Assembly (NCBI RefSeq): GCF_014696925.1
Contig: NZ_JACJQY010000044.1
Coordinates: forward strand, 1 to 46,964
DNA: 46,964 bases
Direction: 5' to 3'
Origin: Phormidium tenue FACHB-1050
GTDB taxonomy: Bacteria > Cyanobacteriota > Cyanobacteriia > Pseudanabaenales > Pseudanabaenaceae
Made by a program: the position numbers and the translations under genes
Shown here: positions 7,810 through 28,070 of the stretch, piece after piece
Numbering within the stretch: the first letter of the stretch is position 1
How the letters are laid out: each line of letters begins with the position of its first letter
Notes under the pieces: generated by a model
Told to the model about the DNA's origin: nothing
The model's database searches: none
Seen by the model: the letters and a program-made list of their open reading frames with translations, nothing else

Positions 7810-9108
7810 TCACATGAGATGGCGCATGATCATCTTTAGTAAATCAGCTTGGGTAAAAGGTTTGGTCAAATAATCTGTAGCTCCTGCAAGCCTTGCACGA
7901 GCGCGGTCAATCAATCCTTTATTGCCTGTCACCATGACAATGGGAATATCTTTTAAAATCGAAGATTTACGAATTAGAGTACAAAGTTGATAACCATCAA
8001 CATTGGGCATTCCAATATCCAGCAGAATTAAATCAGGACGGATAGAATTAATCTTCATCAAGGCTTTCATTGAGTCTTGAATGAGCATAACCTGAAAATC
8101 TTGAATTCCTAAATAGCTGCTGATGATGCTAAGCATTGATTCACTGTCATCAATGCAAACAATCTTCCATGTTTTGACTGTCTGCTGAGCTGAAATTTGC
8201 GAAATACCAGAGTAGTCGTTGTCGATCGCTTCATCTTCTTCCACTTCGTCATTAAATGCACCTGAAAGTTTCTCAATGCTTTCCTGTTCTTCTTCAGGTG
8301 TTAGGCGATAGGTGTGTGGTAATAAGTTAAAAGGAGGTAAAGGTTCTTTTAAGGAGATGGAGCCATCGCCAATCAGAGAACTCAGTTGTTTAGCGATCGC
8401 GAGGGGATCTTTGCCCAATAATGCACCTAACTGACAAAAGTTAAATCCACGGAGAATCCTGCCAAGGCTCTTGACAGTCTCGACAGACATGCGTTTTGTA
8501 GCCTCTTTCTCGCTGACTAAATATGGACATTGATAGGGAGAATAAATTGCAGGTCCCAGCTTATACCAAGCTTTTAACCTTTGCTCAACAACTTCCAAGG
8601 TGCGATCAATAGACAAACTACAGTAGGTATCCCGCAATAAGTGAGCATAAAAACTGCTGCTTAAGTTCTCATTAGGAAGGCATAGGAAAGCTTCTATCAC
8701 TTCTTGAATAATGCGAGCCACCAGTTTACCCGCAACTATTTTGGTTAGATAATTTTCATTAACTAGCCATTGAATCGCAAGGTATTCCGTACAGAGGTTT
8801 TCACTGGTCTCCTTATACTTTGTCTGTTCTGGCGAAGTCTCGTCAAACATCAAACGCAGTTGCGATCGCAATTTGTCGTTCAGTGCAGGAACTTCGCGAG
8901 TTAGTCCCCGCAAATGCCTTTCTACTCTTTCAAAGCTTTCTAATGAATGCGATGCATAGACCAATTTTCCCCTTTCAACATAGAAAGACCAACGAATGCG
9001 ATCGCAAACAACGTACATGCATCCATTTTTACTGGATTCTAGGTTCCCTAAAAGCTTCCTAGGCGAATGTTTGTATTCGTCAATCATATCGATAGTGTTA
9101 TATATCAT
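7810..9108 (-). CDS. PatA-type regulator (PATAN domain plus receiver), copy 2
   Basis: This 432-residue protein has an N-terminal PATAN (DUF4388-like) region with GCMYVV...RIRWSFYVERGKLVYASHS and a helical middle part. A C-terminal receiver follows (CIDDSESM, phospho-acceptor Asp in LLDIGMPNVDGYQLC, Lys in LTKPFTQ). PatA-type regulators head pilus-chemotaxis operons in cyanobacteria (PilG, PixG and HmpA are of this kind), and there is no DNA-binding domain. The ATG at 9108 follows GGGGTAAG. The protein is a close full-length paralogue of the gene at 9560-10858: the receiver and most of the N-terminus match nearly residue for residue, while the linker at about 285-310 differs. Having both first in the cluster suggests either specialised outputs or redundancy. 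Confidence 0.85.
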   Translation of the reverse strand: MIYNTIDMIDEYKHSPRKLLGNLESSKNGCMYVVCDRIRWSFYVERGKLVYASHSLESFERVERHLRGLTREVPALNDKLRSQLRLMFDETSPEQTKYKETSENLCTEYLAIQWLVNENYLTKIVAGKLVARIIQEVIEAFLCLPNENLSSSFYAHLLRDTYCSLSIDRTLEVVEQRLKAWYKLGPAIYSPYQCPYLVSEKEATKRMSVETVKSLGRILRGFNFCQLGALLGKDPLAIAKQLSSLIGDGSISLKEPLPPFNLLPHTYRLTPEEEQESIEKLSGAFNDEVEEDEAIDNDYSGISQISAQQTVKTWKIVCIDDSESMLSIISSYLGIQDFQVMLIQDSMKALMKINSIRPDLILLDIGMPNVDGYQLCTLIRKSSILKDIPIVMVTGNKGLIDRARARLAGATDYLTKPFTQADLLKMIMRHLM

Positions 9109-26873: not shown

Positions 26874-27020
26874 ATAACGTGAGTTCGGGATAAGCTACAA
26901 AATTTAAAAAGCCAAAACAGTAAAAGCCTCGCGAAGCGAGGCTTTTACTGTTTTGGCTCCTAGTTTGGGTTAATTGCAAATTGGCTCCTAGAGAGAGTTT
27001 GCAATTAACCCGAACTGAGG
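26874..27020. mobile_element. Nested palindromic element with GAGTTCGGG ends
   Basis: Outer arms TAACGTGAGTTCGGGATAA and, inverted, TAACCTCAGTTCGGGTTAA enclose two inner palindromes. The first has arms GCCAAAACAGTAAAAGCCTC with tip GCGAAGC. The second has arms GGGTTAATTGCAAA. No coding capacity. It is immediately followed by copy B3. Confidence 0.6.
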
Positions 27021-27024
27021 TTAA

Positions 27025-27126
27025 ATACCAATTCACGAAAGTGTGACAAAACTTTTGTGAATTGAAAACCAAACCCAGTAAAGGTTTTAAAAACACAAAA
27101 TGGCTACGCCATTTTGTGTTTTGGCA
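27025..27126. mobile_element. Three-hairpin element, ATACCAA family (copy B3)
   Basis: Layout as in B1; the right end has decayed (TTGGCA for TTGGTA). The first hairpin (AATTCACGAAAGTG / acttttgtgaatt) carries one mismatch. It abuts the element at 26874. Confidence 0.7.
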
Positions 27127-27298
27127 AATATATTGGTCAAACCAATTAGGCTTCAGCCGTTTTTTTGCTTACTGTGGTCAGTTCATACTTGTACTTTTTC
27201 AAAGCAAATTTTGCTTAAGCTCAGAATAGTACTTTTTGTCATATTCCAAGCCTCTAAATTAATTTTCATACAGTTACTATACAAAACACTAACATTTT

Positions 27299-27371
27299 GT
27301 TAACCTAATGTTAACAATGCATTAATCCTAAGTTAATGTAGGGTTAACCATTATGTAAACTAGGTTAAGAT
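27299..27371 (+). promoter_or_regulatory. Tandem TTAA-core array, 11-bp period (Pho-box-like)
   Basis: GTTAACCT, GTTAACAA, ATTAATCC, GTTAATGT, GTTAACCA and TGTAAACT start at 27299, 27310, 27321, 27332, 27343 and 27354, each exactly 11 bp apart. A seventh TTAAG core follows at 10 bp. Cyanobacterial Pho boxes are tandem 8-bp PyTTAAPyPy(T/A) repeats separated by 3 bp, bound by SphR. The first base here is mostly G rather than a pyrimidine, so the match is close but not exact. The array ends four bases before the ATG of the next gene, which is unusually close for an activator site. Repression or a downstream start are alternatives. Confidence 0.55.
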
Positions 27372-27374
27372 GGA

Positions 27375-28070
27375 ATGAGCAAAGTTCAAGCTACCTCCAA
27401 ATTTCTTTCTTTAGGTATAAAGATAGACATTAAGCTATTAATTACATTCATCCCAAGTTTACTATTCTTAATTGTGGGTATCACAACTGGATACTCTTTT
27501 GGAGTAACGCCTAGTCTTTTGCTTGGAGATCTTGCTGACATAGCAGGCAAGATTAATCCCTTATATGGTTTATTCACCAACATTGGTGTTTTGTGTTGGA
27601 TTGCAACTGCAACAGTATGTTTATTCACAGCTATTACATTACGAAAATTAAAATCTAAAAAAATATTTAATTTTTTGATATATTCAGGAATCCTGTCAGC
27701 ATATTTAGGTATTGACGATGCTTTTATGCTTCATGACTTCGTAGCACCGATTTACTTAAAGATTTCAGAAAATTTTATTTTGGCATCCATATTAATTGCC
27801 TTCATAGTTTATATAGTCAGATTTTATAAACTTATTCTAGCTAGCAACTATACCTTCTTTATTCTGGCGCTATCCTTCCTAACAATGTCATTGGGCTTAG
27901 ATGTATGCCTAAAGTTTTTTGAAGAGACCGCTAAGATTGATGTAAATGTTGGTTTGCCATTAATCCTTGAAGATGGATCTAAATTCCTTGGTATAACTAG
28001 TTGGTTAAGTTACTTTATATACTATTGTCATGATTTGTTAATGAGTATTTTGGGCAAAGACACTCACTAA
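27375..28070 (+). CDS. Unrecognised multi-pass membrane protein
   Basis: I do not recognise this 231-residue protein. It has about six hydrophobic segments (near 20-40, 65-88, 98-118, 130-150, 160-180 and 205-225). Polar residues lie at membrane edges: DDAFMLHDF at about 116-124 and EDGSKFLGITSW at about 197-208. The spaced D-D-x4-H and E-D...K...W pattern could be a metal or active site of a membrane enzyme, such as a ceramidase-like (CREST) fold, but this is speculation. The ATG at 27375 is the only plausible start. It stands alone, preceded by the TTAA array and followed by a 600-bp gap. No GCGATCGC site is present. Confidence 0.65.
   Translation: MSKVQATSKFLSLGIKIDIKLLITFIPSLLFLIVGITTGYSFGVTPSLLLGDLADIAGKINPLYGLFTNIGVLCWIATATVCLFTAITLRKLKSKKIFNFLIYSGILSAYLGIDDAFMLHDFVAPIYLKISENFILASILIAFIVYIVRFYKLILASNYTFFILALSFLTMSLGLDVCLKFFEETAKIDVNVGLPLILEDGSKFLGITSWLSYFIYYCHDLLMSILGKDTH

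Follow-up and report, generated by a model that had tools for sequence, protein, structure and literature searches.

The window analysed here, a stretch of 46,964 nucleotides of Phormidium tenue FACHB-1050, is contig C39 of a 5.6-Mb genome, and 25 other genomes of the genus were searched alongside it. Its positions 27375..28070 (plus strand) encode a 231-aa membrane protein with six predicted long helices, directly preceded on the same strand by a Pho-box-like array (27288..27371) delimited from the sequence and from matrix scores. The array contains seven octamers at exact 11-bp steps, starting at 27288, 27299, 27310, 27321, 27332, 27343 and 27354, and one more that starts 10 bp on, at 27364. 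When the sequence is indexed, exact TTAA is found at 27300, 27311, 27322, 27333 and 27344, i.e. five cores separated by four exact 11-bp steps, and these in-register units form the core of the array (27299..27350, plus strand; 30.0 bits together with the matrix described below). They are flanked by degenerate in-register units, CTAA at 27289 and GTAA at 27355, and the final TTAA lies at 27365, 10 bp past the GTAA unit. With the octamer frame set one base before the core, the region reads ACTAACAT ttt GTTAACCT aat GTTAACAA tgc ATTAATCC taa GTTAATGT agg GTTAACCA tta TGTAAACT ag GTTAAGAT gga ATG. The array is thus a real feature of the sequence, and its five exact units and degenerate in-register ones have the Pho-box form of at least three tandem TTAA octamers with 3-bp spacers. 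The sequence-only reading of this locus had counted six TTAA octamers at 11-bp steps and a seventh at 10 bp: the seventh is where it was placed, but only five cores are exact and the sixth is GTAA. Its general description of the extent holds, except that the upstream CTAA unit was overlooked, and it was right that the array stops just before the start codon, since the last unit ends at 27371, 3 bp from the ATG at 27375. Tandem duplication was rejected as the origin of the array: its units differ from one another, as do its spacers, and Tandem Repeats Finder reports no repeat at this place.

Of the 30 site rows in Table 1 of PMC1906773, 27 went into the Pho matrix; the rows omitted are one from a genome without sphR and two identical to others, and both rows of one identical pair were retained. 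The score range of the published sites (26 rows, median 17.85) is that of training sites and is no independent test of the matrix. The units of the array score, in order, 0.43, 8.69, 4.05, 4.55, 5.22, 7.48, 1.36 and 2.33 bits: two are near the top of the matrix (8.69 and 7.48, for a maximum of 10.6 bits) and the remaining ones are moderate or weak. Scoring the region with such a matrix, a check that the sequence-only reading had proposed, gives a best run of seven units and 31.8 bits, unit counts following a maximal-sum rule that includes weak units. This score was reached by none of 1000 shuffles of the 200-bp upstream region and by none of 150 shuffles of the whole window, for which the best shuffle gave 20.5 bits (runs below 15 bits were recorded as 0, so that the maximum alone is informative). 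When the 200 bp upstream were compared with 2000 shuffles for a given number of units, the score was matched by 22 shuffles for two units, 0 for three, 1 for four and 0 for five, six or seven. Moreover, the pattern TTAA-N7-TTAA-N7-TTAA with at most one mismatch has 8 matches in the window, of which the array accounts for 5, compared with 0.78 ± 0.86 in 100 shuffles (largest 4), and in the whole genome the exact four-unit pattern is confined to this site (2 overlapping matches; 0 in the control).

Bare or relaxed TTAA patterns were nevertheless rejected as markers, for they show no excess over reversed controls. The bare four-unit pattern is not enriched across 58 genomes (27 forward matches vs. 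38 in the reversed control), where many of the matches are near-identical tandem copies, nor is the relaxed three-unit pattern enriched on the two strands of the genome of the window (53 vs. 57 matches). Three-unit scores were likewise discarded as proof of a Pho box: a triplet on the minus strand at 8324-8353, CTTAAAAGAACCTTTACCTCCTTTTAACTT, scores 19.9 bits within a response-regulator coding gene (7810-9108), probably by chance, and outscores the best triplet of the array (17.3 bits). The case for the array therefore rests on its length, its position and comparison. No unit fits YTTAAYYW fully, and each of the five core units begins with G or A. The four TTAA pairs of the array have flank scores (1.0, -3.2, -2.0 and 0.9) at about the level of control sites. 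The direction of the array is also uncertain, because the minus strand scores 26.7 bits over 8 units.

Promoter-like sites in this region are at chance level (7 found, 7.7 expected), and the promoter scan found no convincing -10/-35 pair and recovered neither of the two -10 candidates picked by eye on the plus strand. The first of these, TATACA (27278..27283; 4/6, no -35), would leave the array in the 5' leader, as required for occlusion. The other, TAGGTT (27361..27366; TAN3T), is found 10 bp downstream of the fifth core unit; from it, transcription would start at or next to the ATG, as required for activation; the E. coli spacing rule behind it is the one given in PMC1906773. On the minus strand, the scan detected a promoter-like TTAACA-16-TATAGT (27276..27303; 10/12) whose first hexamer overlaps the array. 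This site reads towards the terminator at 26911 and could yield an RNA of ~360 nt (window 26905-27303). The neighbouring DNA (26903-27125) is rich in repeats, with a 20-pair hairpin that has a minus-strand T-run at 26911-26957. Two further elements were seen by eye, an inverted repeat, TTTGGGTTAATTGCAAA / TTTGCAATTAACCCGAA, near 26963-27015 and another hairpin near 27085-27125. A search for RNA elements between 26600 and 28700 returned 12 Rfam matches, all below their gathering scores.

The gene at 27375 has no further in-frame ATG, GTG or TTG upstream or in its first 30 codons. Its product belongs to no Pfam family and has a single NCBIfam match, far under the model cut-off, which agrees with the earlier description of an unknown membrane gene. 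The predicted structure consists of six long helices (mean pLDDT 88.2, pTM 0.84). Foldseek gave a best E of 0.18, a second-look fold search a best Z of 9.0, within the range that this tool describes as usual for helical bundles, and a profile search of solved structures a best E of 0.49, with an unrelated protein. A known fold was thus set aside, there being no clear match among solved structures; relatives might still lie in families outside those compared. Homologues were found in 2 of the 26 genomes of the genus and in 37 of 386 genomes sampled from the phylum, the own genome being included in both counts. They were also found at 74 named loci, mostly in Prochlorococcus, Synechococcus and Cyanobium, lineages that are over-represented because these loci come from a scan with picocyanobacterial patterns; 15 named homologue loci lie in records named Bacteroidota, Alphaproteobacteria, Actinomycetes or Chloroflexi. 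A first contig scan with the window protein alone gave 146 stretches matching the pattern, none of them a relative.

In a full-length alignment with 17 other members, the window protein shares about 49-50% identity with the orthologue of the congeneric genome G017 and 23-33% with the other 16. D52, D114, D115, H120, E199 and K203 are among the 12 columns that are invariant in these 18 proteins, a set of acidic, His and Lys residues that would be compatible with a transporter or a membrane enzyme. Pfam gave stray matches for only two of the 18 (E 0.03 or worse). Inspection by eye of the window ORFs between 22 and 33 kb and of the surroundings of 14 homologue loci found no recognisable phosphate gene beside the 27375 gene or its relatives. 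A phage-borne copy was sought with one picocyanobacterial member and rejected, with no match in 50,697 phage records. One genome carries three copies of the family on one contig, two of them adjacent beside a flippase-like gene (by eye). At a marine Synechococcus locus, the family gene overlaps the end of a purE-like gene, with no Pho site there.

We compared the array with the phosphate genes of the genome and of the genus. Two pstB genes of the genome pass the model cut-off, and each follows a pstS-like gene. Upstream of pstS2 (contig C30) lies an 8-unit run with 11-bp steps, and four congeneric copies have 6-unit runs; all five pstS2 loci found in the genus score 27.5-33.9 bits, with 0/1000 shuffles each. 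Copies of the pstS2 type (at least 82% identity) were detected in 5 of 23 genomes of the genus. Upstream of sphX/pstS1 (contig C35 and congeners), a block like CTTAACTG-N3-CTTTAACG-N3-CTTAACCT recurs, with a -10-like TAGTAT or TACTAT downstream. Of the 30 loci considered, 19 from the genus were inspected, namely 5 of the pstS2 type, all scored, and 14 of the sphX/pstS1 type, 8 of which were scored and have 3-4 units with 22.2-29.5 bits (0-2/1000 shuffles). Six sphX/pstS1 loci were left unscored. One was not oriented; in the other five the called start placed the box beyond the scored stretch or at its border, and by eye the same block is visible in three of them and its end in two. Long Pho-type arrays (6-8 units) thus occur at pstS2 promoters in the genus. 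Less favourably, a crude scan of 600 bp upstream of 30 pstS-like loci from several genera gave a triplet of at least 17 of 19.8 points at only four (L032, L033, L038 and L039). Two to four Pho motifs are described for Synechocystis promoters in PMC13226834, and the array had been thought longer than usual, a claim that the pstS2 runs do not bear out: its odd feature is its position, not its length. Two further Pho-like sites lie beside genes that were named by eye. In another cyanobacterium, a 4-unit TTAA array with 11-bp steps, detected from its pattern alone, lies directly before a PstB-like gene (L087, 1501-1537), and in the genome of the window a triplet, TTAACCTAATCTTAACCTAGATTTAA, lies between a small gene and a sensor-like gene (L014, 1501-1526; G000:C59:25376).

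The best match to the PhoB model in this genome, G000:C12:58188-58859, scores 240.5 bits, below the cut-off of 296.2. PhoB is its top NCBIfam match and RegX3 its closest solved relative, and RpaB and RppA are separate genes, over their own cut-offs. This regulator is likely SphR, judging from these model matches. In Synechocystis, mutating any of three TTAA cores strongly cuts or abolishes PhoB binding (PMC11126600).

For the regions upstream of homologues, 105 loci gave 103 upstreams (L139 and L142 were dropped, their 5' ends being cut off), of which 76 non-redundant ones were left after removing those at least 70% alike, or 75 without the query; start codons are putative, having been assigned by a script or by eye. 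The single orthologue detected in a congener, L002 in G017, is preceded by ATTAACCT ttt CTTAACCA aga AAAACCTT ga ATG, in which the box ATTAACCT ttt CTTAACCA ends 13 bp before the ATG. Its two-unit run scores 17.0 bits (3/1000 shuffles) and is followed by a degenerate third unit. From its sequence, this site is a near-consensus Pho box at the same place as the array of the window. Among the 75 non-redundant homologues, 10 have an exact TTAA-N7-TTAA pair at most 60 bp from the start and 65 have none; the other TTAA spacings from 6 to 18 occur 0-4 times in the same upstreams (mean 1.75). When one mismatch is allowed, the 11-bp excess shrinks to 22 vs. 8-16. Control genes of the same loci have an 11-bp pair in 8 of 418 cases, and 11 bp is the commonest spacing there too. 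The resulting values (Fisher P = 6e-5; spacing P = 7e-5) both ignore phylogenetic relatedness; several hits belong to Prochlorococcus or freshwater strains that are related to one another, and the independent lineages are perhaps five or six.

Within 150 bp, 12 homologues, the query being left out, have an exact pair, and in 10 of them it lies at most 46 bp from the start. The bases flanking the paired TTAA cores of homologues match the Pho matrix (mean 3.6 bits for 12 sites of 11 homologues, compared with -1.05 for 52 control sites; P = 2e-5), which favours SphR over an unspecified TTAA-binding regulator. The orientation of the pairs is clear but opposite among homologues, forward in L002, L058 and L104 and reverse in L054, L097, L121 and L122. 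In addition, ten aligned Prochlorococcus upstreams share a fairly conserved block, roughly TAGTCGATAG, upstream of the Pho units of some strains. If this block is the core promoter, the Prochlorococcus Pho units would sit downstream of the promoter.

We consider it fairly likely, on these sequence comparisons, that the array is an operator of SphR (the cyanobacterial PhoB) and that SphR controls the 27375 gene, with one sign or the other. We infer that SphR is the binder and that it probably occupies the array, where phosphorylated SphR would bind along one DNA face, set by the 11-bp steps. The sequence-only reading had attributed this spacing to cyanobacterial SphR Pho boxes, an attribution strengthened by the same form of the pst promoters of the genus and by such sites at part of the homologues. 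The 11-bp direct repeat is a habit of the OmpR/PhoB family in general, as in PmrA and PhoP boxes, and another member with the same half-site step could use the array in response to a signal other than phosphate. The genome offers 16 candidates that span nearly the whole PhoB model, among 150 matches scored, and the flanks of the array are not specifically SphR-like. Such a regulator is nonetheless unlikely, given that SphR-like flanks are seen at the orthologue and at most homologue sites that were scored, that the pst arrays of the genus share the layout, and that the RpaB motif has a different core and a 10-bp step. The array might also have no regulatory role, having arisen by chance in AT-rich intergenic DNA or being the remains of a tandem repeat, with which the inverted repeats that fill this region and the lack of enrichment of bare four-unit and relaxed three-unit patterns would agree. 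We regard this as very unlikely, since the long run was unmatched in any shuffle, the orthologue has a Pho box at the same place, and the upstreams of homologues show an excess at one spacing only.

As for the sign of the control, we tentatively propose, at somewhat less than even chances, that SphR represses the 27375 gene on phosphate starvation, as it does urtA. The core promoter would likely lie upstream of or inside the array, and because the array also runs almost to the start codon, SphR bound there would most likely obstruct transcription at initiation or early in elongation. Cells with ample phosphate would then produce the membrane protein, and cells starved of phosphate would stop doing so. 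The sequence-only reading had linked the array to SphR Pho boxes, and this part stands, but it left the sign, and with it repression from sites near the start, out of consideration. In Synechocystis, boxes at or upstream of the -35 activate, whereas the urtA boxes near the -10 go with repression under low phosphate, and a synthetic promoter, PPi-neg, with boxes between the -35 and the -10 shows low-phosphate repression that depends on SphS (PMC13226834). The presence of sites in both orientations at homologues fits blocking better than a directed contact with the sigma factor. Such directed contact is the mode of action of E. coli PhoB. For sites close to the start codon and in both orientations, occlusion fits at least as well as activation.

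The array could instead be an ordinary activating SphR operator, recruiting the polymerase to a -10 that lies within the array or at its end and giving a leaderless or short-leader mRNA induced by starvation, a reading that we hold possible, if doubtful. All the evidence for SphR binding applies to it equally. The pst arrays of similar length in the genus sit ~7-9 bp before a -10-like hexamer (by eye), and TAGGTT would start the mRNA at the ATG. Moreover, six predicted boxes of pst/sphX operons in Table 1 of PMC1906773 begin only 23-48 bp before the annotated start codon. The known SphR targets other than urtA, the one exception named in PMC13226834, are induced, which gives prior weight against repression. 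However, the candidate -10 is weak, and the reversed sites at several homologues are ill-suited to directed activation. At the G017 orthologue, the box is so near the ATG that transcription from a canonical start site would begin within the coding region, where the next in-frame ATG follows after 66 bp; neither this gene nor that of the window has another plausible start codon close by. The weight given to repression and to induction is our judgement and not a computed value.

Extended to the whole six-helix family, from filamentous cyanobacteria to Prochlorococcus, repression by SphR through sites of either orientation between promoter and start codon would be a recurrent feature, which we advance as a somewhat unlikely generalisation. 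If true, SphR would repress, in addition to urtA, a second class of genes, and the membrane protein would be a candidate for a function in phosphate-replete cells, such as low-affinity transport or membrane phosphorus metabolism. The comparative evidence ties an uncharacterised membrane family of abundant marine and freshwater cyanobacteria to the phosphate regulon, and the array offers a clear test of whether the position and orientation of Pho boxes set the sign of SphR control. What is new here is the target family and the position at the start codon, the latter making repression a live possibility; an earlier report of a phosphate response in this membrane family may exist, for example in the supplementary tables of PMC1906773.

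Compared with known systems, the window protein has no Pfam family or NCBIfam model over its cut-off to be set against, and within the six-helix family of Prochlorococcus, Synechococcus, Cyanobium and others it has the same invariant D, DD, H, E and K. Like the SphR Pho boxes of pst, sphX and phoA (YTTAAYYW with 3-bp spacers), the array has TTAA at 11-bp steps and a high matrix score, but its core units begin with G or A and its gene is not beside a phosphate-acquisition gene. It equals the pstS2 arrays of the genus in length, whereas the pst arrays of the genus end 65-121 bp before the start codon and the array of the window abuts it. The closest parallel for the proposed repression is urtA of Synechocystis, which is repressed by SphR and whose boxes likewise lie where the polymerase could be blocked rather than recruited; urtA has two boxes near the -10 and a mapped start site, whereas the window has seven or eight units before an unrelated gene.
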